Shown one piece after another: positions 27,153 through 51,707 of a DNA stretch of 64,000 nucleotides. This DNA is from Bacteroidales bacterium (GTDB taxonomy: Bacteria; Bacteroidota; Bacteroidia; Bacteroidales; UBA932). Under the pieces are notes generated by a model. That model did not search any database and was not told the origin of the DNA. It saw nothing but the letters and a program-made list of their open reading frames with translations. Location: contig SUYU01000003.1 of the NCBI GenBank assembly GCA_015060245.1, positions 62,001 to 126,000 on the forward strand. Reading direction: 5' to 3'. The position numbers were made by a program, and so were the translations under genes. Each line of letters starts with the position of its first letter. The first letter of the stretch is position 1.

Positions 27153-30100
27153 TCAAAGCACATCAAATGTGCAGTATGCCGCTCCTGAAAAGAGGAACTT
27201 GCACGAGACTGCAGATTCAGGCAGGCCGGAGAAGAGGATATGGTCAACATAGGCATCATGAAGGTTGTTGGGGAACTCTTCTGTAGACCCTTCGGAATGC
27301 TTTTTATAGTTGACGCCATCTTCGGACAGATACAGTTCAAATCTCTCCGGAGGTGTGATTCTTCTTCTGTTATGATTAAGCACACTTACCAGAATCTCTG
27401 ATGCACTCTTTTTCAGATCAATGACATACTCGTTCTCACCCTCTTCAAAACGTATCCACCGCACATCTGCTGAATTCTCTTCTGCTCCATCCGCTATTGA
27501 TTGCTCCACGACTCTCCAGAAATGGTCTCCACCGAGCCATGCCATATAATCTTCATAAACCTTGGCAGAATGGAGAGGTTGTCCCAGCGGATAAGGAGAA
27601 CCGGGTTTGTCCCACAATCCGCAAATGATGAATGAGATAATTCTGTCGGCACCGGCTGAAGATGCTGCATACATTTGTGAAAGGAATCTTGAAAATGCAG
27701 CAGGTATCAGTGCCGATGAACGGTCATTGGTACCATTCTCCCATGTAAACGACTCACAATTGGCCCACATCTCCACATTGAGGCTGTCATGTATGGCACG
27801 CAACTTTTTCCAATTCTCCTTAAGACGGGTCAAAGGATACTCCTCACGAAGACATCCCACCTCATCCTGATATGCTATTATATCTACCTTAAGCCTTGAA
27901 ATCTGTTCCGCATAGGCAGGATCATCAAAATCAGACTTGAAAATGCCGTAGGGAGAAATGAGGATCTTCTTGCCAGGAGCAAGTTCCCGGGCCCTTTCTG
28001 TAAGGGCATTGACCGCTTCAACAGCATAATCTGTAAGAACCGGGCCAAGGCAATCCTCCACAGGGAGATACCATCCGTAGAATGCTTCATGCCTGCCATA
28101 AATGCCTGCAAGTTCCTCCATCATATCCATCTGCCTGCGCTTTATTGACGGATCCCTGAGATTGTCATCCTGATCCTTTGCCCATCCGGTACTCATAAAT
28201 ACCTTCATTCCACGCTCTCCCGCAGCATCCATTATGGCGCATACAGGGCTCTTGCGGCCTTGAGGGTAACACCTTGGCATAAGGTCCGACGGATAGAACG
28301 CTTTGCCCTCATTGGCAACTGCCATAAATACAAGATACTCCATTCCCATCTGATGGAGTTCCTCTATTTTCTGCTCCCAAAGGGCCGGATCGGTACAATC
28401 CATGCTTTGGGGATTGGTATACTTGTTTCTTGTATCCTGATATGCGAGATTTATAAAAGTTCCAGTAACCGGCAAAACGCTCCTTTGCTCCCTGCGTGGT
28501 TTCAGATTACCGTCGTAATCCACTCCAAAAGCATTGAAAGGATCAAGCAGCGAATCCATTACCACAGCGGCCTCTCTCCTTGTAACAGGTCTGCCGGAAG
28601 AGTAATCATTGAGTCCAAGATCTTTCCAAAGGAGCATATCAACTTTTGCAGGATTTCCATACTGTGAAGAGATCTTTTCTACAATCGCAGAGAACTCATC
28701 CACTGTAACCTTGCCTTTACGGGCAGGCACAATACCAGGAGCATACTCTTCCAAAAAGAGTTCCTCATACTCAAGTGGCTCTTCCGCCCTGAACCATGTC
28801 TGGTTTGACCACCCCACATTGCGTCCCTCTCCTCTCAGTATGCCTGTTGCTCCTATCCTTTGAAGTGCGGCAAAATGGTAATGGTCAAGTGGCAGATCCA
28901 AATATGGCATTATATATCCTCCGCTGCGGAGAATTGCACTCTGGACCGAACGTATATCAACACTCCTTACAGGCTTGTCCTCCTTGACTGCAATAGCCGC
29001 CATTGCACCGGCAGCCTGGCCCAACTGCATCACAACCGGCTGCAACCGGGTTGTTCCATTTACAAGATTTGATACCGACACCGATTTTTCTGCCACAAGC
29101 AGATCCTCCACACTCTTGGGCACCATAACCCCTGCGGGCACATTGAATGAAGGAATTGGATAAAAATGGAGATCAGGAAGGCTCTTCCAGTCGGGATGCC
29201 TGAAATGGTGATGATCCACAGCATAATCGCCTACCGCTATGCCTGTCCTGTAGTAGGGTTTGCTGTAGGCATAGGGTTTCTGCGCGGCATCCATAGTAAA
29301 GAAGGCCTCGCCCTCGATACGCCTTGATTCCCTGTGATACGGGAAAAAAGGCAACCTGTCGGGTGTAGGAAACTCATCGTCGGCCAGACCCAAATGTTTC
29401 ATTCCCAATTCGGTCTGTATAAAATAAATAAAACAGCGGGTGAACTCCTTTGCTTTTGAATAGGCCTCTTCCCTCTCCTGTGGAGACATTTCAATTGAGT
29501 TAACGTAATGGTCATTGCCGTAAATTGGCCAGTTGATCATATATTTCCCATTTGGAAGGGCTCCATAAGTTATCATGTTTTCTGGTGGCCAGAGAGTCTG
29601 TCCGGTTTCAGGAAATGTATTCAACGGATTTACCGCACAATTGGCAAACACAGACTTGTCGTACCCCTCCGGTTCAGGAAGAGTCATATCGGCATCTGCG
29701 CCATAATCCTTAAGCACTGCAACATACGTCAGATCCTGTATAATATCATTTGGCGATTCAGGTGCTATTGACTCCCCTGTAGTTGATTTTGAATCCATTC
29801 CCACCTTGTACTTAACGCCGCACATCTTTGCAATGTCACCAAGTTCAGTACAATCTATAAGCACAGAGGCACATATCTCAACCCTTCTGCCATCTGCAGA
29901 CTCTGCAACAACCCTCCAGCCGCCCTCTTCAAGTTTGCAGAGCGAGAGCACCTGTGTTTCACGCATTATCTCCAGATTGCCCGCACACGCTTCCGCCATA
30001 TTTGAGAAGATCTCCTGACCAACATGAGGTTCAAAATTTATGTGGCTTACCCAGCCTGTCTTGAGTGCCTCCCAACTGCCGTAGCGCGCAGAGAGAGAAT

Positions 30101-30362
30101 CTGCAAACTCCCCGAATATTCCGCCACGGAGGTTGTAGTTGCCGTCTACACAACTTACACCGGCAGAGGTCAACATTCCTCCCAACCACGGTGTCTGCTC
30201 AATTATGAGGGTATTCACACCCATTCTTGCGCTCTGCACGCCAGCCGCAACACCACTTGCTCCGCCTCCAACTATCAGCACATCTACATTTGCCTTATGG
30301 GAACAGGAGTGCATGAAAAGGGTCAGCAATATTGTATAGAAATAAAAAAATCTTCTCTTCAT
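27153..30362 (-). CDS. Exported FAD-dependent oxidoreductase fused to DUF4434 TIM-barrel
   Basis: A 1069-residue lipoprotein (start 30362; lipobox ending MHSC, Cys20). An N-terminal FAD_oxidored domain (about 26-480) has the dinucleotide motif GGGASG (32-37), the typical PWLGGMLTSAG and DCTELGDIA. After a helical linker with VTRREAAVVMDSL, residues of about 620-950 form a DUF4434 domain (putative (beta/alpha)8 glycosidase, with GWYLPVEDCLG and MWANCESFTWENG); the last 120 residues look like a discoidin-type beta-sandwich. Last gene of the DUF5009 unit, behind a hairpin. Substrate unknown; oxidation of a sugar before cleavage is a guess. Confidence 0.85.
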   Translation of the reverse strand: MKRRFFYFYTILLTLFMHSCSHKANVDVLIVGGGASGVAAGVQSARMGVNTLIIEQTPWLGGMLTSAGVSCVDGNYNLRGGIFGEFADSLSARYGSWEALKTGWVSHINFEPHVGQEIFSNMAEACAGNLEIMRETQVLSLCKLEEGGWRVVAESADGRRVEICASVLIDCTELGDIAKMCGVKYKVGMDSKSTTGESIAPESPNDIIQDLTYVAVLKDYGADADMTLPEPEGYDKSVFANCAVNPLNTFPETGQTLWPPENMITYGALPNGKYMINWPIYGNDHYVNSIEMSPQEREEAYSKAKEFTRCFIYFIQTELGMKHLGLADDEFPTPDRLPFFPYHRESRRIEGEAFFTMDAAQKPYAYSKPYYRTGIAVGDYAVDHHHFRHPDWKSLPDLHFYPIPSFNVPAGVMVPKSVEDLLVAEKSVSVSNLVNGTTRLQPVVMQLGQAAGAMAAIAVKEDKPVRSVDIRSVQSAILRSGGYIMPYLDLPLDHYHFAALQRIGATGILRGEGRNVGWSNQTWFRAEEPLEYEELFLEEYAPGIVPARKGKVTVDEFSAIVEKISSQYGNPAKVDMLLWKDLGLNDYSSGRPVTRREAAVVMDSLLDPFNAFGVDYDGNLKPRREQRSVLPVTGTFINLAYQDTRNKYTNPQSMDCTDPALWEQKIEELHQMGMEYLVFMAVANEGKAFYPSDLMPRCYPQGRKSPVCAIMDAAGERGMKVFMSTGWAKDQDDNLRDPSIKRRQMDMMEELAGIYGRHEAFYGWYLPVEDCLGPVLTDYAVEAVNALTERARELAPGKKILISPYGIFKSDFDDPAYAEQISRLKVDIIAYQDEVGCLREEYPLTRLKENWKKLRAIHDSLNVEMWANCESFTWENGTNDRSSALIPAAFSRFLSQMYAASSAGADRIISFIICGLWDKPGSPYPLGQPLHSAKVYEDYMAWLGGDHFWRVVEQSIADGAEENSADVRWIRFEEGENEYVIDLKKSASEILVSVLNHNRRRITPPERFELYLSEDGVNYKKHSEGSTEEFPNNLHDAYVDHILFSGLPESAVSCKFLFSGAAYCTFDVL

Positions 30363-30401
30363 AAAACGGTATATCTCTTTGCCGGTCATAATATTGAATT
30401 C

Positions 30402-30439
30402 AAAAAAAGGATTATAAAGATAGTCAGTCTATCCTTTTT
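30402..30439 (-). terminator. Hairpin between phosphatase and FAD oxidoreductase genes
   Basis: AAAAAGGAT (30404-30412) pairs with ATCCTTTTT (30431-30439), with an inner GATAG/CTATC alternative; on the minus strand seven Ts follow. It overlaps the stop codon of the phosphatase gene and lies 40 bases before the next start. No promoter follows it, so it may be a partial terminator lowering expression of the last gene. Confidence 0.6.
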
Positions 30440-31856
30440 AAGGATGCTCTACAGACTTGACATATACCCTGCCAAAACGGTCGGTAACCCTCACTTCCAG
30501 TTTTTTTGCATCCTTGGATATGTTTGCCTTGAACATATTCTGTGTAGGAACTGCCCATACCCATTGGCGTTTGAGGGATGAGGGATCCTTGTAGAGTTCC
30601 AGAGCCTGCGGATCCTGTGCCTTGAAACGCTCCATATCACACACCTTTACACCATCTTCGTAATACTCTACCCTCCACAAATCATCGTAATCCCAGACAT
30701 TTGCCACAATCTGACCGGGGTATGCCTCATGGTCTGCATAGAGTTTTAACTGGTAATCAAGGGGATGACCGCAACCTTTGTAAATCCACTCCATTTTGTC
30801 GCCCCTTACCTTTATTACCTTGTAGCCGGCAGGTGAGCCGTCAACACATACAGGGCCGCACCACCATGCTCCGCTCAATCCGGTAACATTTATCTCTGTA
30901 AGGTTCCTGCTGATATTCTGTGTATTTGCCGTGTGCATGTGGCCCGACAAAATAAGGGCATCATACGGCTTGAGCAAATTGTAGATAGCCTTCTTGTTGC
31001 TTACAAGTTCACTTATCATCTCATAATTGAAACTCTTCCGGTCCTCTTCGGCCAATGTGGTAGGAATGTGCAGCGACAATACCACCTTATGGTTCCTTGG
31101 TACGTATGACAAATCCTTTTCAAGCCATTGCAACTGTCTTTCATCAACGTAACCGATGTAATACCAGTCTGTTCCAATAAAGAAGTTGTCATTGAGTACC
31201 ACATAGTGGACCTTTCCAACGTTGAACGAGTACCACGCAGGACCATACATCTCCTCATATTTTTCAAGGGAAGTCTCATACGAGCGTCCGTAATTGGTCA
31301 TATCATGGTTGCCTATGACATTCCTGAACTCAAGGCCAGTCTTTTCCATGATTTTATTGTACTCCGGATATATAGAGTGGTCCCATCCGACAATATCACC
31401 GAGACAGATACCAAATGTCTCAACCTTGCCCATTCCTTTGACATATTCCGCAATGTCATCTGCATGCTTTTCAAGTTCCGGAAGTTCATCCCTTTCGCTT
31501 ATCTGCGGATCGGCAATGACTATAATGTTGTGGTTGGAATCATCTGAACTCTTCTTTTCCAATATAAAATCGTACGACTCCACGTCTTTGCGCAATTTTT
31601 TATAATACTCCAGTTCACCGGGGGTCACAGAAGATCTGTATCCCGACGGTGTAGAGATGAATACCCATCTGCTATCCCCGTCTGCGTCAAGGGTGAATGC
31701 ACCGTTTTTGTCGGTCTGCACACTATTCAATCCATCAGAGACAACAACTCCCGCCACTGCCTTGCCGTCGGTGCTGCGTACACTTCCTTTTACTATTTCT
31801 GCCCTTGCTGCCACGCATGCCAAAAGGGCTGTACACAATAAAAATATTCTCTTCAT
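30438..31856 (-). CDS. Exported calcineurin-like metallophosphoesterase
   Basis: A 472-residue periplasmic enzyme with signal peptide (1-19), an N-terminal carboxypeptidase-regulatory-like beta domain (about 21-100), the metallophosphoesterase domain (about 108-340) and a C-terminal beta domain. Metal-site motifs are ADPQ (Asp116), GDIV (Asp154), GNHD (Asn183, His184), LHIP and GHMHTANT. The three-domain layout is frequent in Bacteroidota polysaccharide-use loci. Within this locus, beside a phosphodiester glycosidase, release of phosphate from a sugar phosphate or phosphodiester is plausible but unproved. The CE2-like gene lies 15 bases upstream. Confidence 0.88.
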   Translation of the reverse strand: MKRIFLLCTALLACVAARAEIVKGSVRSTDGKAVAGVVVSDGLNSVQTDKNGAFTLDADGDSRWVFISTPSGYRSSVTPGELEYYKKLRKDVESYDFILEKKSSDDSNHNIIVIADPQISERDELPELEKHADDIAEYVKGMGKVETFGICLGDIVGWDHSIYPEYNKIMEKTGLEFRNVIGNHDMTNYGRSYETSLEKYEEMYGPAWYSFNVGKVHYVVLNDNFFIGTDWYYIGYVDERQLQWLEKDLSYVPRNHKVVLSLHIPTTLAEEDRKSFNYEMISELVSNKKAIYNLLKPYDALILSGHMHTANTQNISRNLTEINVTGLSGAWWCGPVCVDGSPAGYKVIKVRGDKMEWIYKGCGHPLDYQLKLYADHEAYPGQIVANVWDYDDLWRVEYYEDGVKVCDMERFKAQDPQALELYKDPSSLKRQWVWAVPTQNMFKANISKDAKKLEVRVTDRFGRVYVKSVEHP

Positions 31857-31871: not shown

Positions 31872-32987
31872 CTATTTATAAGCCTTCTCCTCCATTTCCC
31901 ATCCGGTTATGGAAGAGATGTAGGGTATTATGTTGCTGGCCACTTTTATCTGCCCTCTGTAATTTGGATGGGCACTGGCTCCAAGATCTGTGGTATGATT
32001 GTGGACATTTGTCGTCATACCCATATATGAAACATTCTCAAGTCCGCTCATGATGCAGGCATTGCGTATGTGGTCAAAACTGAACGGAGTTACATTTGAT
32101 GCCATGCACAGAATTGGAATATCCTCTCCATAATTGGCCTTCACGCTCTTCAAGAGTTCTATATAGCGTTCTGCAAAGATCAGTTCATGAGGCTGGCGTG
32201 CTGTGGAGAAATCATTTGTACACAAATAAATGACAACAATATCCGGCTTGCCGTGAGGGGCCATATCGGGGCTCCATGCCGGTTCGGCAGACTCATCAAA
32301 GGCCTGTTTATAGCGGTCAGGCATATTGTAACCCGGACGGTAATCGTCATAATTGCGGCATACGCCCTGTCCGGAGTGGCTTACAAGGTTAAAGTCGGCA
32401 TTGAAATAACGTGCTGCAATTGCGGCATATGTAAGGTTGCAATTCTCTGTTTCGGGAAGAAACGGATCATTGCCCGATGCACTCTCGGTACCATATCCGC
32501 AAGTGTATGAATCACCAATGAATTCAATATGTCTCTCCTTACGGCCATTAGCCTGGAGAATCTCACCCTCGCTCACAAAAGAGTGGAGTGTAAACCTTCC
32601 CTGCTCACCTTCGGTCCTTTTTTGAAGTATAACTTCATGCTCGCCCTTTCCAAGTCCCTCGGCAAGCACAATGAGGGTATCTTTTGCTGCAACAATGAAT
32701 TTCCGGTCCTCCTTTGGAGAGATCTCCTTGTCAATCCACAGGTTGAACCAACTGTTTTTGCTGTCGGAACACTTCATTGCAAGATAAGGGCCGTTGAATC
32801 TTACCCTAAAATAGACTCCGCTCCAGTCATAGGCAACATCATTGCCATTTACAACCACCCTGCCGGTATACTCTATGCGACTGTCCGAAGCAGGTGTCTG
32901 TTGGGTCTGCTTCTCCTTTTTTGCAAAAATTTCAGGGCACGACAAAAGTGCCGCCACAGTCATGATTACAAATAACTTCCTGTACAT
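31872..32987 (-). CDS. CE2-like SGNH carbohydrate esterase
   Basis: A 371-residue exported esterase with signal peptide (about 1-22). An N-terminal beta-sandwich (37-145; WSGVYFRVRF, MKCSDSKNSWFNLWID) is followed by an SGNH domain with the nucleophile in FIGDSYTCGYG (Ser160), LCTNDFS (Asn block) and AHPNYRGQIK (His). This two-domain order is that of carbohydrate esterase family 2, which removes acetyl groups, often from O-6 of sugars. It is 14 bases after the DUF5009 gene. Deacetylation of the locus's target glycan is the natural inference. Confidence 0.87.
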   Translation of the reverse strand: MYRKLFVIMTVAALLSCPEIFAKKEKQTQQTPASDSRIEYTGRVVVNGNDVAYDWSGVYFRVRFNGPYLAMKCSDSKNSWFNLWIDKEISPKEDRKFIVAAKDTLIVLAEGLGKGEHEVILQKRTEGEQGRFTLHSFVSEGEILQANGRKERHIEFIGDSYTCGYGTESASGNDPFLPETENCNLTYAAIAARYFNADFNLVSHSGQGVCRNYDDYRPGYNMPDRYKQAFDESAEPAWSPDMAPHGKPDIVVIYLCTNDFSTARQPHELIFAERYIELLKSVKANYGEDIPILCMASNVTPFSFDHIRNACIMSGLENVSYMGMTTNVHNHTTDLGASAHPNYRGQIKVASNIIPYISSITGWEMEEKAYK

Positions 32988-33001: not shown

Positions 33002-34369
33002 TTAAGATTTCCAAAACAACTTGTACCTTGTTGAGAGCCATGTTGCCCCCATCATCAACAGTGTCATGATTATACCCATTGCCACTCCCCAGAACTGCGA
33101 TCCCTCTGCCAGTGAAGAGATGAAAGGATATATTGCACACATGCTCAATACCGGACCTATTAAAAACGATGTTACCGTATAAGCCAACATGGGATTCTGT
33201 CCCACACCGGCCACAAAGCCCCATTTGATTCCAAACCTCATTTCAAGCATAAGAAGAAAACTTATGAAGAGCGTTGCCATACCTGAGGTTGTGATGAGAT
33301 ATGAAAGATTGGCATAATCCTTTGTTATGCCACCATCAATAGGGTCAAATGCAATTCCCACAAGCAGAAGCAGAAAACCCATTTTTGCCATCTTTACTGT
33401 AACACTCCTGCTCTTGAATGTAAGGGCAAAATATACAACTGCAGCAAAGAGACTTATAATGAAATCAGCAGTCACCTCCCTTGCAAAAAGTCCCCACAAT
33501 TGTAAAACGACTGCTGCCAAAGCAATGAAACCGGCATATACCTCCTTATCGGCAACAGGCTCCTTCTTGTCGCTGCGACTATGCGCCAAAACCATATCAC
33601 CTACTACAGAACCCGTAATTGCTATCAGCAGATACTGCATGAAACTCCATTGGAAGAGCCAACCCACAGAAGCAGTTGAGGGAATGAATGAAAGCATATC
33701 AGGCCAGTATGAAGAGACTCCCTTTGCTGCTGCAATGAAAAGAAAAACCATCCACCTTGCCAAAATATTGTTCCTCGTAAAAATCCATATCAGGCCGCCC
33801 CAAAGTGCTATGTTGGCAAGAATCAGAATAATAATGTCACTGTTTGACTTGTCTGGAACAAATCCGGCCCATTTGACCATTGCCACCCCTATAAGCAATA
33901 TAAGGGCGACTCCGGAGATATTTATCAACGGATATTTTGTTCTCACAAGCGAGAGGAACATTCCTGCCCACACCATAATTTTAAATATTCCCGACAGCCA
34001 TGGCTGCGACAACACCCCTGGGGCAGAGTAGGCATTGCCAAGTACAATGGCAAAAAGAGCAAGTATGAGCCAACGTTTCAACAAAACCGGTATAAGGGCA
34101 TGTGGACGCTCCCCTTTCTCCAACCTTTTCCTCAATGACAACGGAATGGCTGCTCCCATTGCAAAGAGGAAGAACGGGAAGACAAGATCCACCCAGGTAA
34201 TACCCGGAACATCGGGATTGAACGCATATGTAGGTGGAGGCGTCTGCGCATGAAACATCCAGGCAGGAAGGTTTGAATTGAAACCTATATTTGCGCAGAG
34301 TATCATTGCGGCAATGGTTATTCCACGCATTATGTCAATGGAGGCTATACGTTGGTTTGTAATTTTCAT
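33002..34369 (-). CDS. DUF5009 / HGSNAT-like membrane protein
   Basis: A 455-residue polytopic membrane protein with about eleven hydrophobic segments. The N terminus IASIDIMRGITIAAMIL and the block ITWVDLVFPFFLFAMGAAIPLSLRKR match the DUF5009/COG4299 family, related to lysosomal heparan-alpha-glucosaminide N-acetyltransferase and bacterial NagX. HGSNAT moves an acetyl group across the membrane onto a terminal glucosamine; whether this homologue does is unknown. It is first in a four-gene unit with a -7 box at 34394-34401 and a terminator behind it. Confidence 0.85.
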   Translation of the reverse strand: MKITNQRIASIDIMRGITIAAMILCANIGFNSNLPAWMFHAQTPPPTYAFNPDVPGITWVDLVFPFFLFAMGAAIPLSLRKRLEKGERPHALIPVLLKRWLILALFAIVLGNAYSAPGVLSQPWLSGIFKIMVWAGMFLSLVRTKYPLINISGVALILLIGVAMVKWAGFVPDKSNSDIIILILANIALWGGLIWIFTRNNILARWMVFLFIAAAKGVSSYWPDMLSFIPSTASVGWLFQWSFMQYLLIAITGSVVGDMVLAHSRSDKKEPVADKEVYAGFIALAAVVLQLWGLFAREVTADFIISLFAAVVYFALTFKSRSVTVKMAKMGFLLLLVGIAFDPIDGGITKDYANLSYLITTSGMATLFISFLLMLEMRFGIKWGFVAGVGQNPMLAYTVTSFLIGPVLSMCAIYPFISSLAEGSQFWGVAMGIIMTLLMMGATWLSTRYKLFWKS

Positions 34370-34478: not shown

Positions 34479-36098
34479 TTATTTGTATTGTGAGCAACCG
34501 ATGATGTTGAAGTTCACATCCACAAAGAATACCAATAGGGCATTATCTGTAGGAACAAGTAGAACATCACTTGAAGCACCTGCGCCTGTCCAGTCAAGGT
34601 TAGCCCAGTCAGAATCTCTGTCAACAAGACCATCGCAGTCAACTGCAAATACCTTCTCAGCAGCAGTTTTGTTTGTTACATCAAGAACAAATACATCAGT
34701 AGCATCATAGTTGAAGTGGCAACTTGCTGTGATTGCAGCATACTCTTTACCTTTCCATGTTGCTCTTGAGATACAGTTGAAGTTCTCCATCCAACCTGAC
34801 ATACCGGTAGCATATGATGTCTCCCAAGCATTTTGAGAAGGATCAGCACAATATTTAAGGTTATAATCGCCACCATATGCGATGAACCATAGACCATCTG
34901 AAAGATCATCACCCTCTGGAAGAACACAACCATAACGAGCCTCAGTACCTATATAAGGAGTTGTATTGCATTTGAATACAGACCAACCGTTTGCATCAAC
35001 TGCAACCTCACCGTTAGCAGCCTCCCATGCTACCCAGTAACCGCTGTTTGCAGCATATGCTGTGATTACTGCTTTGGTATCAATGTTACCTTTAACACGG
35101 ATGTTACCTGTATTTGAACACCAGATGTTTGCAGTGCTGTATTTTACAAGTTCTTTAGGAGTTGATGACAAATCTTTCAAAGTGAAGATTGTAAGGATCT
35201 CACAGAACTCAGCGCCTGACCAACTGTAGTCTGCATGAGCAGCGATTAGGATATTGCCACCCTCATCTACACAAAGGTTATCACAAGTGAAGCCCTCAGG
35301 AAGTGCAACTGTAGACTCTACAGCACCAGTAGAAGGATTAAGAACCAATACTTTAGTTAGGTTAGAAACAAGAAGTTTGTCACCGTAGGCAGCAATCTTG
35401 GTCTCACCGCCAACTGTATAACCGTCAAGTTCAGTTACGTTCTTTGACCAGATAAGTGATTTAGGACCACTCTGTGAAATAGTATAAGTAACATCCTCAA
35501 AGCCCTCAGCAGAAACTGTAACCTCAGCAGAACGTGAAGCGTCAAGTTCGTTGAAAGCATCTACTTTAATCTCATAAACTTTCTCACCATATGCTTTTGT
35601 ACCAACAGCAGTAAGCCATTTTGCATCAGCAGGGATAGTTACTTTGAAATCAACGTTGGTCATAACTTTGATTGAAGCAGTACCACCCTCTTCACCAAAT
35701 GTTGCAAGGGTATCAACTAGTTCAAAAGCGTCTACCTGATACTGAACCAATGTAGCCTCAGCAACAGCAACTTGAGCGGCAGTAGCAGACTCTGCTGCAG
35801 TAATTACAAGTTTTGCTGAACGGTTCTCTTTAGTCTTGTTCTCATCAGCAATGATACGGATTACAGCATCACCTGCAAGACCTGATTTAGGTGAAACAAC
35901 TACCCAGTCAGCACCCTGAACTGCTGCAGTCCAATTTACGTTTGAATTGAATGAAAGTTCCATTCCATCTGTACCTTCAGTCTCAATGAAGATCTCCTGG
36001 CCTGCTTTGTCAAATACGATAGCAGGAACGATTGGATCCTCTTTTTCACATGCAATAGCCGCAATTGCGACCATCAACATAACAAAAAATTTTTTCAT
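34479..36098 (-). CDS. BACON-domain surface lipoprotein with beta-propeller-like C-terminal half
   Basis: A 539-residue lipoprotein (lipobox ending IAIAC, Cys17). Two BACON-type domains (about 28-120 and 122-212; FNSNVNWTAA...GADWVVVSPKSG and TNVDFKVTIPADAKWL) precede a C-terminal half (about 215-539) with blocks LNPSTGAVES, DEGGNILIAAHA and NIRVKGNID. That half resembles the C-terminal half of the DUF5018 lipoprotein encoded in the same unit. BACON domains are usually carbohydrate- or mucin-contact or spacer modules. As last gene of the SusC/SusD unit it probably serves as a surface glycan-binding protein. Confidence 0.82.
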   Translation of the reverse strand: MKKFFVMLMVAIAAIACEKEDPIVPAIVFDKAGQEIFIETEGTDGMELSFNSNVNWTAAVQGADWVVVSPKSGLAGDAVIRIIADENKTKENRSAKLVITAAESATAAQVAVAEATLVQYQVDAFELVDTLATFGEEGGTASIKVMTNVDFKVTIPADAKWLTAVGTKAYGEKVYEIKVDAFNELDASRSAEVTVSAEGFEDVTYTISQSGPKSLIWSKNVTELDGYTVGGETKIAAYGDKLLVSNLTKVLVLNPSTGAVESTVALPEGFTCDNLCVDEGGNILIAAHADYSWSGAEFCEILTIFTLKDLSSTPKELVKYSTANIWCSNTGNIRVKGNIDTKAVITAYAANSGYWVAWEAANGEVAVDANGWSVFKCNTTPYIGTEARYGCVLPEGDDLSDGLWFIAYGGDYNLKYCADPSQNAWETSYATGMSGWMENFNCISRATWKGKEYAAITASCHFNYDATDVFVLDVTNKTAAEKVFAVDCDGLVDRDSDWANLDWTGAGASSDVLLVPTDNALLVFFVDVNFNIIGCSQYK

Positions 36099-41607: not shown

Positions 41608-41624
41608 GTTCACTCAATTAATGA

Positions 41625-43280: not shown

Positions 43281-43293
43281 TTTCAAAATTGTT

Positions 43294-46200
43294 TTAGAAT
43301 GTTAATGTAATACCTCCCATAAGAAGACGCTGTTGTGGATAATAACCGTTGTTTACACCTGGAGACTCAGGGTCAATACCCTCTGGAAGTCCGTCAATTG
43401 TAAAGATGTTCTGTCCCTCAACAAAGAATCTTAAGGTCTTGACACCTATCCTTGATGTTATATTTGTAGGAATTGTATAACCGAGTTGTGCTGTTTTAAG
43501 ACGTACATACTTACCATCTTTCAACCAGAATGTCGATGCAAGACCATTGTCTCCACCATGACCTGGAGCACCAAGTGTTATACGAGGGAATGTTCCGTCT
43601 GGGTTGTAGATGCTGTATGCATTCTCAACAAGGAACAATGGTGAGTTTGCACCCTCTTTGAATGTCTGTGTCCACACTGTATTGTCATCGTTACCATTAT
43701 AATATGTACCGGTCAATGATACGTCAAACAACGCACCACCTGTGAACTGGGCATTGAAATCAAATCCGTTCCAAGTGAAATCAAGGTTCAAACCATAAGT
43801 AAGTTGCGGACGGTTAGGGCGTCCTACAAGACCCTTGTCATCATAACCGATCTTGCCGTCACCATTCAAGTCAACATATTTGATATCACCCACACATGGA
43901 CGTGTTCCGAACCATGCTGAGTTGTCAATCTCCTCCTCACTTCTGAAAAGGCCATCTGCTTTCCACGCAAGGAATGATCCTACAGGTTTGCCTGTAAGTT
44001 TCCAGATTTCAGGAGAGTTAGGCTCGTCAGAGTAGATTAGCCAACGTGTTTTGGCATATGTAACACTGGCACTGATTCCATAATAGAATGGTTTTCCTCC
44101 AACCATAACTGTGTTACGGTGTGACACCATTACATCAATACCTTTAGTATCAAGTGATTCCTTGTTCACAACTGTAGCATAGTATCCACCCATTGATGAT
44201 GGGAATCCGGAACCCTGTGCTGTCAACATATCGTATGTCCAGTTGTAGAATCCGTCAACCTCAAAGCCCAATTTTTCATTCCACAAAGTTGCGTCAAAAC
44301 CGGCATTCCAAGAGAGTGTCTTCTCCCAAGTAAGGTCAGGATTTGGTACCAACGCAGCCTGATATGCAGGGTTGCTTGTAAATGAGCCGCCATTATATCC
44401 GCCAAAAACGACCTTGTTGCCCCATTGTGTATATGAACTCAAGAATGTGTATGGAGCAGCATTGTCATTACCAAGAAGACCTACTGAAGCCCTGATCTTC
44501 AAATTGTCAAGGAATGATGCATTTTGCATCCAAGGCTCTTTTGACATAATCCAACCCAAAGATGCAGAAGGGAAGAATCCCCAACGTGTATCTGCCATAC
44601 CTGCAAACTTGTATGAACCGTCATAACGGCCTGTAAATTCTGCCAAATATTTGGAATCATAATCATATCTTGCCCTGAATACGTAACCGGCAGAACGTGA
44701 AATTGAACTCCAGCCATCTATAGGTGATTTTGTAGGTTTACCATTTGAAAGTTCCGGAAGAGAAGCAAACGGAAGTTCCTGTGCATATGCGCTCAAGCCA
44801 TTGCCTTTATAATCACGTACCTCCAACAATGCAAGAAGATCAATATTATGTTTGCCGAATGAGTTTGTATAAGCGATGCTTCCCTGACCAATCAAATTGA
44901 ATGAGTATACAGTTCCTTCGCCAAGTTCCACACCATTACCTACACCACGTGGATCAGCCATTTCAACCCATTGTCCTGCGCTGTAGCACATCAAATAATA
45001 TGGAGTGTTCAAATTCTTGTTGTATGAGTTTGAATAGTCGAACGAACCTGAAACCTTAAGTTGAAGGCCCTCTACCCATGGAACATCATAAGAGAGTGTA
45101 ACATTTGTTGAAACATCCACAGCCTTTGTCTTTTTATATCCCGACTCATAGATTGCAGCAAGCGGGCTCTGAGGATGAGATGTATTCTTCTTTTGTGATG
45201 CAGTGTAAAGGCCATTGTATTTTACTGGCAAGTAAGGGTGCATCATGATTGTCTGGTTTGCAATTGAAAGCCAACCTGTTTCAGAACCCATATCAGAACC
45301 TCCTGTTGAGAATGCAGGTGTACTACGGTCTGAAATCACACCTGAAATACCCAACTTGAAGTGGAAATTCTCTGCAAAGTCAGACTCAATGTTTGCACGG
45401 AGGTTGTATCTGTTGTAATCATAGTTGTCTATATTACCTTTTTGTCCAAGATAACCGAATGATGTAAAGTAACGGGTCTTCTCATTACCGCCCTGTACAG
45501 TTACGTTATGTTTCTGGGTAAAACCTGTACCGAATACTTTATCAATATAGTTGACGTTGTCCCAACCGTCTGTAGGGTCACCGTTTGTCATCATTGCTAC
45601 CTGATCCTGTGTGAAGTATGGAACATAATCCTGCTCACTTGCAATGGCACCTGATGCCAACTGGTCCATCATCTGCGCTACATTATAATAGTATGCGAAC
45701 TGCGGACCATCCATGAATTTAGGGAAGTTTGCATTGAGTGATGCTCCCAAAGATGCATTGTAGGTAATCTTTGTGCTTCCCTTCTCACCTTTCTTTGTTG
45801 TAATGATGATCACACCACCTGAAGCCTGAAGACCGTAAACAGCAGCCGAAGCACCATCTTTAAGTACTGAAACGCTCTCAATATCGTTAGGATCCAAATC
45901 GTTGATGTTTGCAACAGGGAATCCGTCAACAACATAAGATACGGCGTTTACCGAACCTCTGATTCGGAGGGCTGCCTGGTCAAGGCCCGGCTCACCTGAC
46001 TCCTGAACTGAAGAGATACCTGGAAGACGTCCTGCAAGAAGTTGGGATACGTTTGTAGAAGGAGCCTTCATGAGTTCCTCACCCTTCATTACAGAGACTG
46101 CACTTGTAAGTGATGATTTCTTCTGGGTACCGTAACCTACCACCACAATATCCTGAAGAGTTTCAATGTCATCCTGCATAGATACGTTATAAACGGCTCT

Positions 46201-46473
46201 CTTTCCGTCATAAACGTAATTTACAGTGACCATTCCAATAAAGGAGAATTCTACATTTTCTCCAGTTTTGATGTTTTTAAGTTCATAGTAACCATTATGG
46301 TCGGTTGCTATTCCATTGCTTGTTCCTGTTACAAGAACAAAAACTCCAGCCAACGGCTCACCATTGGCATCTGTGACTGTACCGCTCAAAGAGCCCTGGG
46401 ACTGTGCAAAAACTGTCCCGCAGCCCATAAAGAGCAACAGTGCAACCAATAGATTTCTAAAAATAGATTTCAT
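43294..46473 (-). CDS. SusC/RagA family TonB-dependent outer-membrane transporter
   Basis: A 1059-residue TonB-dependent receptor. Signal peptide (1-23), carboxypeptidase-regulatory-like domain (about 27-105, GTVTDANGEPLAGVFV), TonB-box region DIVVVGYGTQKKSSLTSAVS, plug domain with LLAGRLPGISSVQ and VYGLQASGGVIIITTKKG, then a 22-strand barrel ending with an aromatic residue (GGITLTF). With SusD it imports oligosaccharides. There is no N-terminal anti-sigma-interacting extension, which fits control by a regulator other than an ECF sigma/anti-sigma pair. Confidence 0.98.
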   Translation of the reverse strand: MKSIFRNLLVALLLFMGCGTVFAQSQGSLSGTVTDANGEPLAGVFVLVTGTSNGIATDHNGYYELKNIKTGENVEFSFIGMVTVNYVYDGKRAVYNVSMQDDIETLQDIVVVGYGTQKKSSLTSAVSVMKGEELMKAPSTNVSQLLAGRLPGISSVQESGEPGLDQAALRIRGSVNAVSYVVDGFPVANINDLDPNDIESVSVLKDGASAAVYGLQASGGVIIITTKKGEKGSTKITYNASLGASLNANFPKFMDGPQFAYYYNVAQMMDQLASGAIASEQDYVPYFTQDQVAMMTNGDPTDGWDNVNYIDKVFGTGFTQKHNVTVQGGNEKTRYFTSFGYLGQKGNIDNYDYNRYNLRANIESDFAENFHFKLGISGVISDRSTPAFSTGGSDMGSETGWLSIANQTIMMHPYLPVKYNGLYTASQKKNTSHPQSPLAAIYESGYKKTKAVDVSTNVTLSYDVPWVEGLQLKVSGSFDYSNSYNKNLNTPYYLMCYSAGQWVEMADPRGVGNGVELGEGTVYSFNLIGQGSIAYTNSFGKHNIDLLALLEVRDYKGNGLSAYAQELPFASLPELSNGKPTKSPIDGWSSISRSAGYVFRARYDYDSKYLAEFTGRYDGSYKFAGMADTRWGFFPSASLGWIMSKEPWMQNASFLDNLKIRASVGLLGNDNAAPYTFLSSYTQWGNKVVFGGYNGGSFTSNPAYQAALVPNPDLTWEKTLSWNAGFDATLWNEKLGFEVDGFYNWTYDMLTAQGSGFPSSMGGYYATVVNKESLDTKGIDVMVSHRNTVMVGGKPFYYGISASVTYAKTRWLIYSDEPNSPEIWKLTGKPVGSFLAWKADGLFRSEEEIDNSAWFGTRPCVGDIKYVDLNGDGKIGYDDKGLVGRPNRPQLTYGLNLDFTWNGFDFNAQFTGGALFDVSLTGTYYNGNDDNTVWTQTFKEGANSPLFLVENAYSIYNPDGTFPRITLGAPGHGGDNGLASTFWLKDGKYVRLKTAQLGYTIPTNITSRIGVKTLRFFVEGQNIFTIDGLPEGIDPESPGVNNGYYPQQRLLMGGITLTF

Positions 46474-46491: not shown

Positions 46492-47823
46492 TTATTTTCC
46501 GGATTTCATTGCATTTTCCAATACATCCCAAAGTTTGTGCTTGTTGAGATGCACGATATCAAAGACCATTACACCCTCTGTACTCTTCAGAGCCTGCTCC
46601 ACTGCAGGACCGAATGGTGTAAAATCGCCTATATACTGCTCTACATATATTGAACCGATAACCGGTACCACACCTTTTGTTATACTTTTGGCCAACTCTG
46701 CGCCACCCTCCACAGAGTAGCAATATGTAAGGCTGTTGTCCATGCCTGCCTCGCTGCGCTGTCCTACCACACCTGTTGCCTTGTCGACGTCAGCCTTGGT
46801 AATCATTGAGTAATAGAGTCCGGTCATGTAGATGTCCAACTCCTCAGCATAACCAGTCTTATAGTAATCTTCTGTAGCCCATACCTTATACTCATCTACC
46901 TGATATGGATCAAAAGTACGGCTTGCCCAGTTTACACCCAATTGCCAGTATGTAGGATACCATGCACCTGTGTAATCACCTATAATAAGATCAGGATTGA
47001 TTGCTTTGAGTTCCTTGTGCGCCTTTGACACAAAATCATGAATTACGCTTGCTCTCCACTCTATCCATTTTTTACCATGTTTTCCCGGAGCCCAAGTCTC
47101 ACGCAATTTGCCCTCTTCATCATACCAACTGAGTATATCTTCAGGGAAGTTCTCAACCTCAACACCGGCATACTCCTCAAACATCTCTTTTGAAAGTTCA
47201 CTGAAATCAGATGTTACGCCATCATAACGTACCCTGTCAAAGATAAGGCCGTCACAATCCGGATATTTTGCAACAAATTCCTTGAGAATCTCCAACTGAT
47301 ACTCCTGAACCTCCGGATTTGCAGGGTTAAGCATACCATTATAATTTGTCTTGATGGATGATATCGGAACAAGTTCACCCTTCTCATAGCAGATGGACTG
47401 CCATTGAGCCTTGTCGCCATAAATGATACCTCTGTCAAAGAAATTGTGGCCACCGGCAAAAACATTGAGAGAAGCAAAGACCCTCACTCCTATCTGGTGA
47501 CCGTAATCAATGAAATAACGCATCATGTCGTAGTCACGACTCCTCTCCACGCCTTCCCAATCACCCATGTATGGGGCGATTTTACTGTCATACAATACCT
47601 CACCCATTATTGACTTCATGTCAACAACAACATTGTCAAAGCCTATATCCTTGGATTTCTGAATATAGTATCTTATTGAATCAGGTGTTGACAAGGTCCT
47701 GTAATTCGCCTCACAGTCAAACCACATATAGTTGTGGTTATACTCTTTGCTGTTAGCCGAACAAGACCCCAAAAGTGCTGATATTGAAAGCACTAACAAA
47801 AAAGATCTGATAAGTTTTAACAT
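46492..47823 (-). CDS. GHL10-like putative glycosidase lipoprotein, first gene of the SusC/SusD unit
   Basis: A 443-residue lipoprotein (lipobox ending LLGSC, Cys21) with a (beta/alpha)8-type domain from about residue 30. Shared blocks with the paralogue at 37335-38831: MWFDCEAN, FDNVVVDMKSIMGEVLYDS, LNPANPEVQEYQL, DGLIFDRVRYDG, DFSELSKEMFEEYAG, IHDFVSKAH, GAWYPTYWQLGVNWA. No linker repeat here. Such proteins are GHL10-like putative glycoside hydrolases with no activity I can assign. It is transcribed first, from a good promoter at 47854-47885, 18 bases before susC. Confidence 0.82.
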   Translation of the reverse strand: MLKLIRSFLLVLSISALLGSCSANSKEYNHNYMWFDCEANYRTLSTPDSIRYYIQKSKDIGFDNVVVDMKSIMGEVLYDSKIAPYMGDWEGVERSRDYDMMRYFIDYGHQIGVRVFASLNVFAGGHNFFDRGIIYGDKAQWQSICYEKGELVPISSIKTNYNGMLNPANPEVQEYQLEILKEFVAKYPDCDGLIFDRVRYDGVTSDFSELSKEMFEEYAGVEVENFPEDILSWYDEEGKLRETWAPGKHGKKWIEWRASVIHDFVSKAHKELKAINPDLIIGDYTGAWYPTYWQLGVNWASRTFDPYQVDEYKVWATEDYYKTGYAEELDIYMTGLYYSMITKADVDKATGVVGQRSEAGMDNSLTYCYSVEGGAELAKSITKGVVPVIGSIYVEQYIGDFTPFGPAVEQALKSTEGVMVFDIVHLNKHKLWDVLENAMKSGK

Positions 47824-47853
47824 AAGATGCCACTAATTGTAAATTAATGAGTG

Positions 47854-47929: not shown

Positions 47930-47960
47930 TTGTTTTTTTTTTTAATATTACATATATTCG
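47930..47960 (+). promoter_or_regulatory. Putative promoter of the DUF4434-MFS-ROK unit
   Basis: On the plus strand TTG (47930-47932), 20 bases, TATATTCG (47953-47960, one mismatch in TTTG), 20 bases before ATG 47981. Confidence 0.5.
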
Positions 47961-47980
47961 CAAAAATATTTTTTTAAGTT

Positions 47981-49066
47981 ATGACCGACAGAAGATCTTT
48001 TATAAAAACAGCTGGCCTCGCAGCCGCTGGCGCTGTGGCAGCACCATCATTGATAGGTTCACTTACCGGCTGCAGCAAGAATGAAGAGAATTTGATTGTT
48101 GCACCTGAGAGCAACCTGATTGTACCAAAGGCAAACGGATTGCAGATTACAGGTACGTTCCTTGATGAAATATCACATGACATACCTCATCAGAACTGGG
48201 GTGAAAAGGAATGGGACCAGGATTTTGCATATATGAAATCCATAGGTATCGATACCGTTATAGATATAAGGTGCGGATACAGGAAATTTATAACATATCC
48301 GTCGCCATACCTATTAAAAAAGGGATGCTACATGCCTTCAGTAGACCTCATAGACATGTTCTGCCGTTTGGCACAGAAATATGACATGACATTTTACCTC
48401 GGCCTTTATGATTCGGGAAAATATTGGGACACAAAGGACATGAGTTACGAAATTGAAGACAACAAGTTCGTGATTGACGAGGTGTGGAACATGTATGGCA
48501 AAAAGTACAAGAGTTTTGGAGGATGGTACATAAGCACCGAAATCAGCCGCCAGACCAAAGGCGCAATCAAAGGCTTCCATACAATGGGCAAACAGTGCAA
48601 GGATGTGTCAGGAGGACTTCCAGTATTCATATCTCCTTGGATTGACGGTAAAAAGGCCATTATGGGAACAAACAAACTTGTCAATGACAATGCTGTAACA
48701 GTTGAAGAGCATGAGAAGGACTGGAACGAGATCTTTGAGGGAATCCACGACGTGGTTGATGCAGTTGCATTCCAGGACGGACATATCGACTATGATGAAC
48801 TTGACATCTTCTTTGAGGTAAACAAGAAGATGGCCGACAGATGGGGCATGAAGTGCTGGACCAATGCAGAGACATTTGACCGCGACATGCCTATCAACTT
48901 CCTGCCTATCAAATTTGACAAATTGAGAATGAAACTCGAGGCTGCCAAGAGAGCCGGCTATGACAAGGCCATTACATTTGAGTTCCCTCACTTCATGAGT
49001 CCTCAGTCGGTATATGGCGCTGCCGGCAACTTGTACAACAGATATAGGGAGTATTTCAACATTTAA
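47981..49066 (+). CDS. Tat-exported DUF4434 putative glycosidase-like lipoprotein
   Basis: A 361-residue protein with twin-arginine signal DRRSFIKTAG and a lipobox-like LTGC (Cys31). The mature part matches DUF4434, a TIM-barrel family near glycoside hydrolases: GTFLDEISHD, FAYMKSIGIDTVIDIR, GWYISTEIS (likely active-site glutamate), VDAVAFQDGHID, KCWTNAETFDRD. It is a stand-alone relative of the DUF4434 domain in the FAD-oxidoreductase fusion of the same locus. Tat export suggests folding, perhaps with a cofactor, before export. First gene of the divergent unit, 15 bases before the sugar porter. Confidence 0.85.
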   Translation: MTDRRSFIKTAGLAAAGAVAAPSLIGSLTGCSKNEENLIVAPESNLIVPKANGLQITGTFLDEISHDIPHQNWGEKEWDQDFAYMKSIGIDTVIDIRCGYRKFITYPSPYLLKKGCYMPSVDLIDMFCRLAQKYDMTFYLGLYDSGKYWDTKDMSYEIEDNKFVIDEVWNMYGKKYKSFGGWYISTEISRQTKGAIKGFHTMGKQCKDVSGGLPVFISPWIDGKKAIMGTNKLVNDNAVTVEEHEKDWNEIFEGIHDVVDAVAFQDGHIDYDELDIFFEVNKKMADRWGMKCWTNAETFDRDMPINFLPIKFDKLRMKLEAAKRAGYDKAITFEFPHFMSPQSVYGAAGNLYNRYREYFNI

Positions 49067-49080
49067 GGAGAGGTTAAGAT

Positions 49081-50505
49081 ATGAAAAAGAGCATGAACAT
49101 GGGATATGTCATCTTTATGGCAGTCGTTGCTGCCATAGGTGGAATATTGTTCGGATATGATACTGCCGTAATCTCAGGCACAACAGAGATTGTAAAGAAT
49201 CAGTTCTCGCTTTCAGACTTGAAAGAGGGATGGTATGTAGGATGTGCGCTCATAGGTTCAATCGCAGGAGTGCTTGTTGCAGGAACACTCAGTGACTACT
49301 TGGGAAGGAAAGTTACAATGCTTATCTCTGCGGCTCTGTTCAGCATATCGGCAATAGGTTGTACCGTATGCGGAACATTTGACCAACTTGTTGCCTACAG
49401 AATCATTGGCGGCGTAGGTATCGGTATTGTATCTATAGTGTCACCTATATATATATCGGAGGTTTCACCTGCAAAGGTAAGAGGAACGCTTGTATCTCTC
49501 TACCAATTGGCTGTTACAGTGGGCTTCCTGCTTGCATACCTTGCCAATTGGGTTATAGATTCAAACATTGACGGCGGTATTGTTGCCTCTGCATTGGCCG
49601 GAGAAGAGGTATCTCTAATGGATAAGATCATGCACAGTGAGGCATGGAGAGGAATGCTTGGCAGCGAAACCCTTCCTGCACTTTTGTTCTTCTTCATAAT
49701 CTTCTTCATTCCGGAGAGTCCCAAATGGTTGGTAATCAAAGGCAAACTCAATAAAGCATCCAGAATTTTCTCACGTATATACACAAATGAGGATGAGGCG
49801 AGAAATGAAATTGCCGTAACCAGGGAATCTGTAAACGGCGGATCAAACGGCGAGTGGAAAGACCTCTTGAAGCCGGGAATCCTCATTGCTGTAATTGCCG
49901 GCAGTGCAATAGCAATTCTTGGACAGTTCATGGGTGTGAATGCAGTTCTGTACTATGGTCCAAAGATCTTCTCGGAAGCAGGTTTTGACAATCCTATGTT
50001 TTCAACCGTACTTGTAGGAGTTGTAAACATGGTCACTACCATATTGGCAGTCTTCATCATCGACAGAGTTGGAAGAAAACAACTTATCTACTGGGGAGTA
50101 AGCGGAATGATAATATGCCTTCTTTGCATAGCGGTATACTTCCAGTGGGGAGCAACTCTTGGACTCGGCAACTCGTTCATGCTTGTATTCTTCCTTGCGT
50201 ACGTATTCTGTTGCGCCATTTCCATCAGTGCCATTGTGTTTGTACTGTTGTCTGAAATGTACCCTAACAGCGTAAGGGGAAGGGCCATGTCAATTGCCGG
50301 TTTTGCACTTTGGATAGGAACATATCTTATTGGCCAGTTGACACCTGTACTTTTGGGTTGGAGCCAATCGGGAACTTTTGCTATATTTGCAGTGTGCTGC
50401 ATCCCATATATGCTTATAATGTGGAAAGTGGTACCTGAAACAACAGGAAAGACACTTGAAGAGATTGAAGCCCATTGGAATAGCATCTCTAAAACAGGCA
50501 AATAA
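49081..50505 (+). CDS. MFS sugar porter (XylE/GLUT-like)
   Basis: A 474-residue transporter with twelve membrane segments. Sugar-porter signatures: GYDTAVISGT (segment 1), YLGRKVTML, RIIGGVGIGIVSIVSPIYISEVSP with AKVRGT, PESPKWLVIKG (centre), DRVGRKQLI, YPNSVRGRAMS and PETTGKTLEEIE at the C-terminal end. It most likely brings a monosaccharide released by the locus across the inner membrane with protons. An AAGGAG sequence overlaps the preceding stop about 10 bases before the ATG, unusual for this phylum. Its stop overlaps the ROK start by one base. Confidence 0.94.
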   Translation: MKKSMNMGYVIFMAVVAAIGGILFGYDTAVISGTTEIVKNQFSLSDLKEGWYVGCALIGSIAGVLVAGTLSDYLGRKVTMLISAALFSISAIGCTVCGTFDQLVAYRIIGGVGIGIVSIVSPIYISEVSPAKVRGTLVSLYQLAVTVGFLLAYLANWVIDSNIDGGIVASALAGEEVSLMDKIMHSEAWRGMLGSETLPALLFFFIIFFIPESPKWLVIKGKLNKASRIFSRIYTNEDEARNEIAVTRESVNGGSNGEWKDLLKPGILIAVIAGSAIAILGQFMGVNAVLYYGPKIFSEAGFDNPMFSTVLVGVVNMVTTILAVFIIDRVGRKQLIYWGVSGMIICLLCIAVYFQWGATLGLGNSFMLVFFLAYVFCCAISISAIVFVLLSEMYPNSVRGRAMSIAGFALWIGTYLIGQLTPVLLGWSQSGTFAIFAVCCIPYMLIMWKVVPETTGKTLEEIEAHWNSISKTGK

Positions 50506-51707
50506 TGACTACTTCATTTCTATACCAGACCCAAGGGAAAAACGACTTGCTCAAGAGACAAATCATTACCCAATGCATCAATGAGGGTAATATAAGCATT
50601 GCAGACATAAGCAAGAGACTTACAACAAGCATCCCGACAGCAACCAAACTCGTCAGCGAACTGATTGATGAGGGATTCTTGAAAGACATGGGCAAACTGG
50701 GAACAAATGGAGGCAGAAGACCTAACATATATGGATTGAACTCTGCTGCAGGCTACTTTGTGGGGGTTGACATCAGAAGACACCATATAAATATGGCAAT
50801 CGTAGATTTCAAAGGAGAACTGGTTGATTTTATTGAGGATGTGAACTTTACCCTTGTGAACTCCATTGAGTCATTTGATGAGTTCTGCAAAGTCATCATG
50901 GAGAGTCTCACCAGTTATGGTATTGAACATCACGACGTTCTTGCGTACGGCATTAACTTTACCGGTAGAGTGAACAACTCTACCGGGTATTGTTTTTCCT
51001 ATTACATAGGAGAGAATACGCCAATTGCCGAGATACTGGAACAGAACCTTGGCTGTCCTGTATTTACAGAGAATGATTCAAGGGCCATGACCTATGGAGA
51101 GTACATGTGCGGCGCAGGCCAGGGAGAGAAGGACCTTCTCTTCATCAATGTAACATGGGGCTTGGGCATGGGTATGATTATTGACGGACAGTTGTCATAC
51201 GGAAAATCGGGCTATTCAGGTGAAATCGGGCACTTCCCTCTCTTGAGCAACAACCAGATCTGCCAGTGCGGAAAAGTAGGTTGCCTTGAGACAGGTGCGT
51301 CGGGATCAGCCTTGCACAGGATATTCCTTGAAAAACTCAAGAACGGACAGTCCTCCATTCTTTCAGGCAAATACAGCAACAATGAAGAGATTACTCTTGA
51401 AGATATTCTTGGAGCCGTATTTGAAGAGGATATGCTTGCCATTGAGTGTGTTGAGGAAATTGGCGCCACTCTTGGAAGGGCAATTGCAGGTCTTATCAAT
51501 CTTTTCAACCCCGAAACTATAGTAATCGGCGGCATTCTTGCAGATGCCAAGGATTACCTTCTCATTCCAATCAAAGGGGCCATCAACAAACATTCATTGA
51601 ATATAGTGAGCAAGGATACCCATATAAAGATATCAAAACTAGGGAAGCGATGCGGAGCAATAGGAGCCTGCATGCTGTCGAGAAGCAAATTGCTCAATCT
51701 TATATAG
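50505..51707 (+). CDS. ROK family transcriptional regulator
   Basis: A 400-residue NagC/XylR-type repressor: N-terminal winged helix-turn-helix (about 12-78, ISIADISKRLTTSIPTATKLVSELIDEG) followed by a ROK sugar-sensing domain with the zinc motif GHFPLLSNNQICQCGKVGCLE (His243, Cys253, Cys255, Cys260) and GLGMGMIIDG. The HTH and loss of strict kinase motifs favour regulator over kinase. No HTCS or ECF sigma gene is present in the locus, so it is the best candidate for its local controller, responding to an imported sugar. Translationally coupled to the porter. Confidence 0.92.
   Translation: MTTSFLYQTQGKNDLLKRQIITQCINEGNISIADISKRLTTSIPTATKLVSELIDEGFLKDMGKLGTNGGRRPNIYGLNSAAGYFVGVDIRRHHINMAIVDFKGELVDFIEDVNFTLVNSIESFDEFCKVIMESLTSYGIEHHDVLAYGINFTGRVNNSTGYCFSYYIGENTPIAEILEQNLGCPVFTENDSRAMTYGEYMCGAGQGEKDLLFINVTWGLGMGMIIDGQLSYGKSGYSGEIGHFPLLSNNQICQCGKVGCLETGASGSALHRIFLEKLKNGQSSILSGKYSNNEEITLEDILGAVFEEDMLAIECVEEIGATLGRAIAGLINLFNPETIVIGGILADAKDYLLIPIKGAINKHSLNIVSKDTHIKISKLGKRCGAIGACMLSRSKLLNLI

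Follow-up and report, generated by a model that had tools for sequence, protein, structure and literature searches.

The question raised by a 15-gene locus in a Bacteroidales genome is which glycan its products take apart. The locus occupies positions 27153-51707 of a 64,000-nucleotide stretch (hereafter the window; positions 62001-126000 of contig C23 of genome G000, which spans 2.2 Mb and is 92% complete), and its nearest named relatives, judged by the identity of its DUF4434 protein, are metagenome-assembled genomes of Bacteroidales, mostly from the ruminant gut. Our analysis suggests, at somewhat less than even confidence, that it is a polysaccharide utilisation locus (PUL) for a phosphodiester-linked, N-acetylmannosamine (ManNAc)-bearing glycan of the bacterial envelope, either a polymer of the wall-teichoic-acid type or a glycosyl-1-phosphate capsule.

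Profile searches confirmed all 15 open reading frames of this 24.6-kb island and upheld the domain calls, so that the glycan-use locus recognised in a preliminary description of this DNA, with its SusC/SusD pair, sugar porter and ROK regulator, stands. The genes are arranged in two compact, divergent runs, 12 on the minus strand (27153-47823) and three on the plus strand (47981-51707), with spacings of -1 to 109 bp inside the runs and 157 bp between them. SusC and SusD are adjacent and are accompanied by carbohydrate-active and binding proteins and a sugar-sensing regulator, which is the architecture of a PUL. Because the runs are tight, the genes recur with conserved neighbours in other genomes and the borders with a DUF1573 gene and meaB are exact, the set is more than a chance grouping. 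Its features are as follows.

27145-51806, no strand: the island, inserted between the DUF1573 gene (26053-27144) and meaB (51807-53000).
27153-30389, minus: fusion of an FAD-dependent oxidoreductase (residues 36-485; PF12831, 301 bits) and a DUF4434 TIM barrel (residues 641-931; PF14488, 138 bits), with a lipoprotein-type signal.
30438-31856, minus: calcineurin-like metallophosphoesterase with a signal-peptide-like start (PF16370, PF16371; motifs DPQ, GD, GNHD, H and GHMH).
31872-32987, minus: CE2-type SGNH esterase, a probable O-deacetylase, with a signal-peptide-like start (PF17996, CE2_N, 70.9 bits; PF13472; motifs GDS, ND and HP).
33002-34369, minus: DUF5009 multi-pass membrane protein (PF16401, 156.8 bits).
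34479-36098, minus: BACON-domain lipoprotein, a probable surface glycan-binding protein (PF13004).
36135-37310, minus: N-acylglucosamine 2-epimerase (AGE), cytosolic, predicted to interconvert ManNAc and N-acetylglucosamine (GlcNAc) (NF052547; match to 6f04).
37335-38831, minus: GHL10a, a GHL10 and DUF4985 lipoprotein, probably a surface endo-acting glycan cleaver (PF02638, PF16373).
38831-39928, minus: predicted NAGPA-family phosphodiester glycosidase, a lipoprotein (fold and motifs).
39931-41613, minus: DUF5018 lipoprotein, a probable surface glycan-binding protein (PF16410, 327.8 bits).
41625-43286, minus: SusD (PF07980, 197.8 bits).
43294-46473, minus: SusC, a TonB-dependent transporter (PF07715, PF13715, PF00593).
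46492-47823, minus: GHL10b, a GHL10 and DUF4985 lipoprotein, probably a periplasmic glycan cleaver.
47981-49066, plus: DUF4434 TIM barrel, a Tat-type lipoprotein, probably acting in exo mode to release the sugar that is then imported (PF14488, 273.7 bits; solved relative 4h41).
49081-50505, plus: sugar-porter MFS importer (PF00083, 384 bits).
50505-51707, plus: ROK-family transcriptional regulator, NanR-like by locus context (PF00480, 180 bits, and winged-helix matches).

The epimerase gives one indication of the sugar. It scored 669.7 bits against the NF052547 N-acylglucosamine 2-epimerase model, for which the equivalog cut-off is 600, and matched the Nostoc AGE structure 6f04 at E 3.8e-154. 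The N-acetyl pocket residues F117, A174 and I178 are conserved; in nAGE10, according to the excerpted report, a Phe, an Ala and an Ile are proposed to hold the N-acetyl group (PMC6333288). At a genome-wide threshold of E 1e-25, AGE was present in all 26 genomes holding the locus or its DUF4434 gene (24 with the window-type NAGPA, G308 with a NAGPA-less locus and G310 with a DUF4434-MFS pair only) and in none of 20 locus-free genomes of the same genus, defined by the lack of a NAGPA match and not by DUF4434. These results bear out the amino-sugar substrate proposed earlier. Eighteen of the 26 genomes carry the window subtype of AGE and eight only a divergent one (36-40% identity), in some cases encoded outside the locus; since both subtypes track the locus, the activity itself is seemingly needed. 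NagB was found in 21 of the 21 genomes tested, locus-bearing or not, which suggests that the locus adds an entry for ManNAc and not the use of GlcNAc. GlcNAc catabolism requires no epimerase and AGE nevertheless tracks the locus; thus, on pathway knowledge, the imported sugar would most simply be ManNAc. Searches of the window genome at E 1e-10 returned no match to the NanA of Bacteroides pyogenes and none to a sialidase (at 92% completeness, a gene could be missed), and true NanA (at least 75% identity) occurred in 6 of 24 locus-bearing genomes. Therefore, a source other than sialic acid is most likely for the ManNAc here, and sialate was rejected as its origin for the window genome, while a sialoglycan substrate was retained as a rival.

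The second indication is the NAGPA-family protein (38831-39928). Its predicted structure has the fold of this family and its sequence the conserved motifs, both in common with the vertebrate uncovering enzyme NAGPA and with BACOVA_00430 (3ohg), at 19-25% identity over the structural alignment. In addition, the corresponding B. pyogenes locus encodes a GHL10-DUF4985 enzyme fused to a homologue of the metallophosphoesterase (L166, 12968-15643, minus strand), which ties the two activities to one substrate. The NAGPA fold and motifs and this fusion support the presence of a phosphodiester in the substrate, in agreement with the preliminary description, and the phosphodiester would be the bond that is cut. 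The metallophosphoesterase and the CE2-type esterase, whose domains and motifs are present, look accessory, because each was found in only 5 of 25 loci. Elsewhere in the window genome lies a second NAGPA-domain protein (L072, 13464-15215; 583 aa), which is 53% identical over the domain and has no SusC/SusD match nearby.

It had been stated that no gene of the locus belongs to a known polysaccharide-cleaving family, and this does not hold for GHL10. Cwp19 from Clostridioides difficile, which has a GHL10 domain, is described in the excerpted report as a peptidoglycan lytic transglycosylase (PMC6016235), and DigH of Escherichia coli is likewise described as degrading peptide-free peptidoglycan strands (PMC12288456). 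The closest structures to the predicted GHL10b model were Cwp19 and PgaB, and BLASTP aligned GHL10b with DigH at 23% identity. By fold and sequence, then, GHL10b is homologous to these enzymes and is probably a glycan cleaver. Run with phmmer against the sequences of the PDB, GHL10b gave no match up to E 1, the Cwp19 match coming from structure alone, and Cwp19 and DigH, 16-23% identical, are cell-wall enzymes of their own hosts and not PUL enzymes.

The gene at 27153-30389 had been described as a DUF4434 TIM barrel; the domain is there, but the N-terminal half, an FAD-dependent oxidoreductase, had gone unlisted. Among the 18 loci with a match to this gene, the match was full-length only in the window and G255 and was confined to the N-terminal part in the other 16, with G233 holding a separate gene that matched the DUF4434 part. 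The oxidoreductase would represent a redox step in a PUL.

Taken together, the phosphodiester, the ManNAc and the amino-sugar backbone indicate a glycan of the bacterial envelope. The linkage unit of wall teichoic acid, ManNAc-GlcNAc-1-P-6-MurNAc (MurNAc, N-acetylmuramic acid), carries both the phosphodiester and ManNAc, and ManNAc-1-phosphate or ManNAc-containing phosphorylated capsules also exist, with structures that fit the locus. We propose that NAGPA would cleave N-acetylhexosamine-alpha-1-phosphodiesters at the cell surface, where GHL10a would cut the N-acetylhexosamine backbone, the glycan being held by SusD, the DUF5018 protein and the BACON protein (part of which is related to the DUF5018 protein, at 24% over 168 aa, E 1e-05) and imported through SusC. 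In the periplasm, GHL10b and the DUF4434/FAD enzymes would trim the glycan together with the esterase and the phosphoesterase, the final cleavage falling to DUF4434. The released ManNAc may then be taken up by the MFS porter, converted to GlcNAc by AGE and passed to the usual GlcNAc pathway (NagB and its partners), while ROK may sense the amino sugar. This scheme builds on the gene content, the predicted folds of two enzymes, the active-site motifs, the limits of the island and the co-occurrence of AGE; where the proteins act, ManNAc as the product, the phosphodiester as the cleaved bond and the polymer of origin are inferences.

To describe the distribution of the locus, 25 loci were compared, from 21 family genomes including that of the window, three named genomes with NAGPA, and Hoylesella oralis. 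A strong match to the window-type NAGPA occurred in 22 family genomes, of which all but G215 (a 5.7-kb contig) entered the comparison; genomes with one of the 11 weaker matches (E 1e-16 to 1e-31), including the same-genus genome G003, were not counted as locus-bearing. Subject to a threshold that loses weak matches and to several loci being cut by contig ends, the counts per 25 loci were NAGPA 24, GHL10a 23, DUF5018 23, SusC 22, SusD 22, DUF4434 20, MFS 18, FAD oxidoreductase 18, AGE 15, ROK 15, BACON 11, GHL10b 10, DUF5009 7, metallophosphoesterase 5 and CE2 5. A less circular set was picked by DUF4434 from 84,980 species genomes, taking the best 80 of 590 related places, which showed 71-97% identity to the 47981-49066 protein; 75 of the 80, with a DUF4434 open reading frame over 65% identity, were used. 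With flanks limited to 10 kb, these 75 loci gave MFS 63, SusC 52, ROK 49, AGE 40, DUF5018 29, GHL10b 22, GHL10a 18, NAGPA 16, NanA 1 and sialidase 1. Named carriers of this DUF4434 include B. pyogenes, B. finegoldii, B. faecalis, B. oleiciplenus, Phocaeicola coprocola, Hoylesella oralis, Alistipes montrealensis and Tannerella forsythia. DUF4434 and AGE were the best conserved proteins, at 72-80% and 72-79% identity in most family loci holding them, DUF4434 falling to 48-51% in G032, G112 and G233. In B. reticulotermitis (L098, 200-1300; L168, 6278-7442), AGE is spread across three frames and ROK is fragmented, through decay or sequencing error.

Two related systems help to place the locus. In B. 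thetaiotaomicron, BT_0435 is a protein that we take to be DUF4434 (4h41), and BT0437 is presumably AGE. The excerpted descriptions give BT0446-BT0449 as DUF5009, family 10 glycosylhydrolase, calcineurin-like and family 10 glycosylhydrolase proteins and BT0451-BT0454 as SusD, TonB receptor and sugar porter (PMC10434189), BT0433 as NanR for sialic acid/GlcNAc (PMC3878776), BT0438 as a GH89 alpha-N-acetylglucosaminidase (PMC8225759), and BT_0439 as a SusC observed with GOS and hMOS and implicated in host glycans (PMC5238430). Judged by these gene names, BT0433-BT0454 resembles the window in its ROK, sugar porter, SusC/SusD (BT0439/BT0440 among them), two family-10 glycosylhydrolases, calcineurin-C-domain phosphoesterase and DUF5009; the likeness rests further on 4h41 and on B. 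finegoldii L093, with the order ROK-DUF4434-MFS-AGE-SusC-SusD. However, the module there is paired with GH89 (BT0438), and the published description, in its excerpted form, names no NAGPA. In the texts consulted, no exact gene-set match to a locus with a known non-phosphorylated substrate was found, which the preliminary description had named as contrary to its proposal; for BT0446-BT0454, which came closest, the same excerpted text reports no substrate. The B. pyogenes PUL (L166-L167) is similar in its SusC, SusD, DUF5018, two GHL10, DUF5009, NAGPA, DUF4434, MFS, AGE, FAD oxidoreductase and ROK, and has the GHL10-metallophosphoesterase fusion, but adds NanA, sialidase, NanM, GH20 and SASA genes; its AGE, beside NanA, is only 38% identical.

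Several observations weigh against an envelope phosphoglycan. The count of NAGPA in 24 of 25 loci is circular, since 24 of the loci were picked by NAGPA, and among DUF4434 loci with DUF5018 it was found in 14 of 29, with flanks of at most 10 kb hiding some (in B. pyogenes and B. reticulotermitis it lies further out). L076 and L109 have DUF5018 beside GHL10a with no NAGPA between them, the whole H. oralis genome lacks NAGPA, and the window genome has two more NAGPA genes, one of them outside any SusC/SusD locus. NAGPA is thus a frequent but not constant member. Searches of the open-licence literature found no bacterial NAGPA-family protein with a reported assay; among the papers listed there was also none on a PUL with NAGPA or on a PUL for teichoic acid, which does not imply absence from print. 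AGE works in both directions, so that ManNAc as the product is not proved, and the control of 0 of 20 genomes spans a single genus. MurQ was missing in 13 of the 20 locus-bearing family genomes, and the 6 locus-free genomes of the same genus all had it; these counts led us to drop peptidoglycan MurNAc as the main food. The strongest contrary case is a sialoglycan, since the homologous B. pyogenes locus lies within a sialate operon and sialidase-type matches occurred in 8 of the 24 genomes with the locus but in none of the 6 without it, although all six of the latter are same-genus and the three locus-bearing same-genus genomes also lack such a match. The NAGPA and sialidase counts led us to lower the weight of the envelope phosphoglycan, and of the wall-teichoic-acid route in the family at large, and to raise that of a sialoglycan and of a plain amino-sugar polymer.

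If the substrate were a host sialoglycan or mucin, ROK, MFS and AGE would be NanR, NanT and NanE, GHL10 and DUF4434 would trim the glycan under the sialic acid, and NAGPA would remove a rarer phospho-substituent. The contiguity of the B. pyogenes locus with sialate genes, the sialidase counts, the naming of BT0433 and the host glycans favoured for the neighbouring BT_0439 operon all argue for this. However, the window genome lacks matches to NanA and sialidase, true NanA is confined to a quarter of the locus-bearing genomes, and NanA and sialidase each appear in a single one of the 75 DUF4434 loci; we therefore regard this explanation as somewhat unlikely. A plain beta-linked amino-sugar polymer, such as poly-N-acetylglucosamine or peptide-free peptidoglycan strands, might instead be cut by GHL10, with NAGPA and AGE acting on minor parts. 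The resemblance of GHL10b to Cwp19, PgaB and DigH, the distant relationship of DUF5009 to a protein at the MurT position and the homologous loci without NAGPA are consistent with it, yet GlcNAc alone would leave the perfect tracking of AGE in the genomes tested without a reason and MurQ is so often missing that we consider this unlikely. Yeast phosphomannan or glycans of the host mannose-6-phosphate type, which the preliminary description had included, are very improbable substrates. NAGPA is the family of the vertebrate enzyme that uncovers mannose-6-phosphate, and B. thetaiotaomicron, which has BT0446-BT0454, eats yeast mannan, but the 15 genes gave no match to a mannosidase family, and the cytosolic enzyme that is conserved has an N-acetyl pocket and belongs to the N-acylhexosamine epimerases. 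An envelope phosphoglycan remains the explanation that we tentatively prefer.

The DUF5009 protein had been labelled HGSNAT-like, but a DUF5009 domain does not by itself indicate an acetyltransferase. DUF5009 was its sole Pfam match at a threshold of E 0.01; a distant relative in T. forsythia matched both DUF5009 and PF07786, the catalytic domain of HGSNAT-type acetyltransferases, each below the cut-off. The T. forsythia cluster (L176, 4642-10333) reads MFS-NamZ-(DUF5009/HGSNAT-like)-kinase-like-SIS, the relative sitting between NamZ and the last two genes, where the excerpted report places the MurNAc transporter MurT (PMC7670621). The labels MurT, MurK and MurQ were assigned to the T. forsythia genes by position against that cluster, the last also by its SIS domain. 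Because of this position, the window protein is at least as likely to be an inner-membrane amino-sugar transporter as an acetyltransferase, and the analogy suggests that the DUF5009/HGSNAT group may include amino-sugar transporters.

The island appears to be an insertion. A meaB match was found in eight island-free same-genus genomes, six of which were examined (G074 and G097 were left out); one was uninformative, the contig of G027 ending at meaB, and in all five informative ones (L191, L192, L194, L195 and L196) the DUF1573 gene adjoins meaB, with 13 to 57 bp between the match ends. G255 has the same junctions, on two contigs. No exact direct repeat of 9-20 bp was common to short stretches at both edges, and a foreign base composition was ruled out, the GC of the island (0.4391) matching that of the flanks (0.4345 and 0.4375). 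A 401-bp stretch around the divergent gap held five sigma-70-like matches against 1.8 expected, a weak excess under a consensus that may not suit Bacteroidales, whose promoters differ in type from it. A little to the right of the locus, positions 54320-57010 encode an 896-aa BspA-type leucine-rich-repeat protein with five LRR_5 stretches, and positions 2347-3528 encode a choloylglycine-hydrolase family protein, possibly a bile-salt or penicillin-V acylase.

On a wider scale, it is conceivable, though doubtful, that a common Bacteroidales PUL family, with a DUF4434-MFS-AGE core, GHL10 and often NAGPA, is the gut's route for eating the wall teichoic acids or phosphorylated capsules of neighbouring bacteria. 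On this view DUF4434 would be a glycosidase family that releases ManNAc, and a periplasmic FAD oxidoreductase would bring a redox step into the cleavage of glycans. The B. thetaiotaomicron relative has been reported to be induced in the gut by unknown substrates, and the specific, inexpensive prediction of ManNAc, a phosphodiester and a bacterial-envelope glycan would make that question testable. If it is true, the DUF4434 and PUL-type GHL10 proteins would gain a function, and Bacteroidales would be shown to feed on the walls or capsules of other bacteria.

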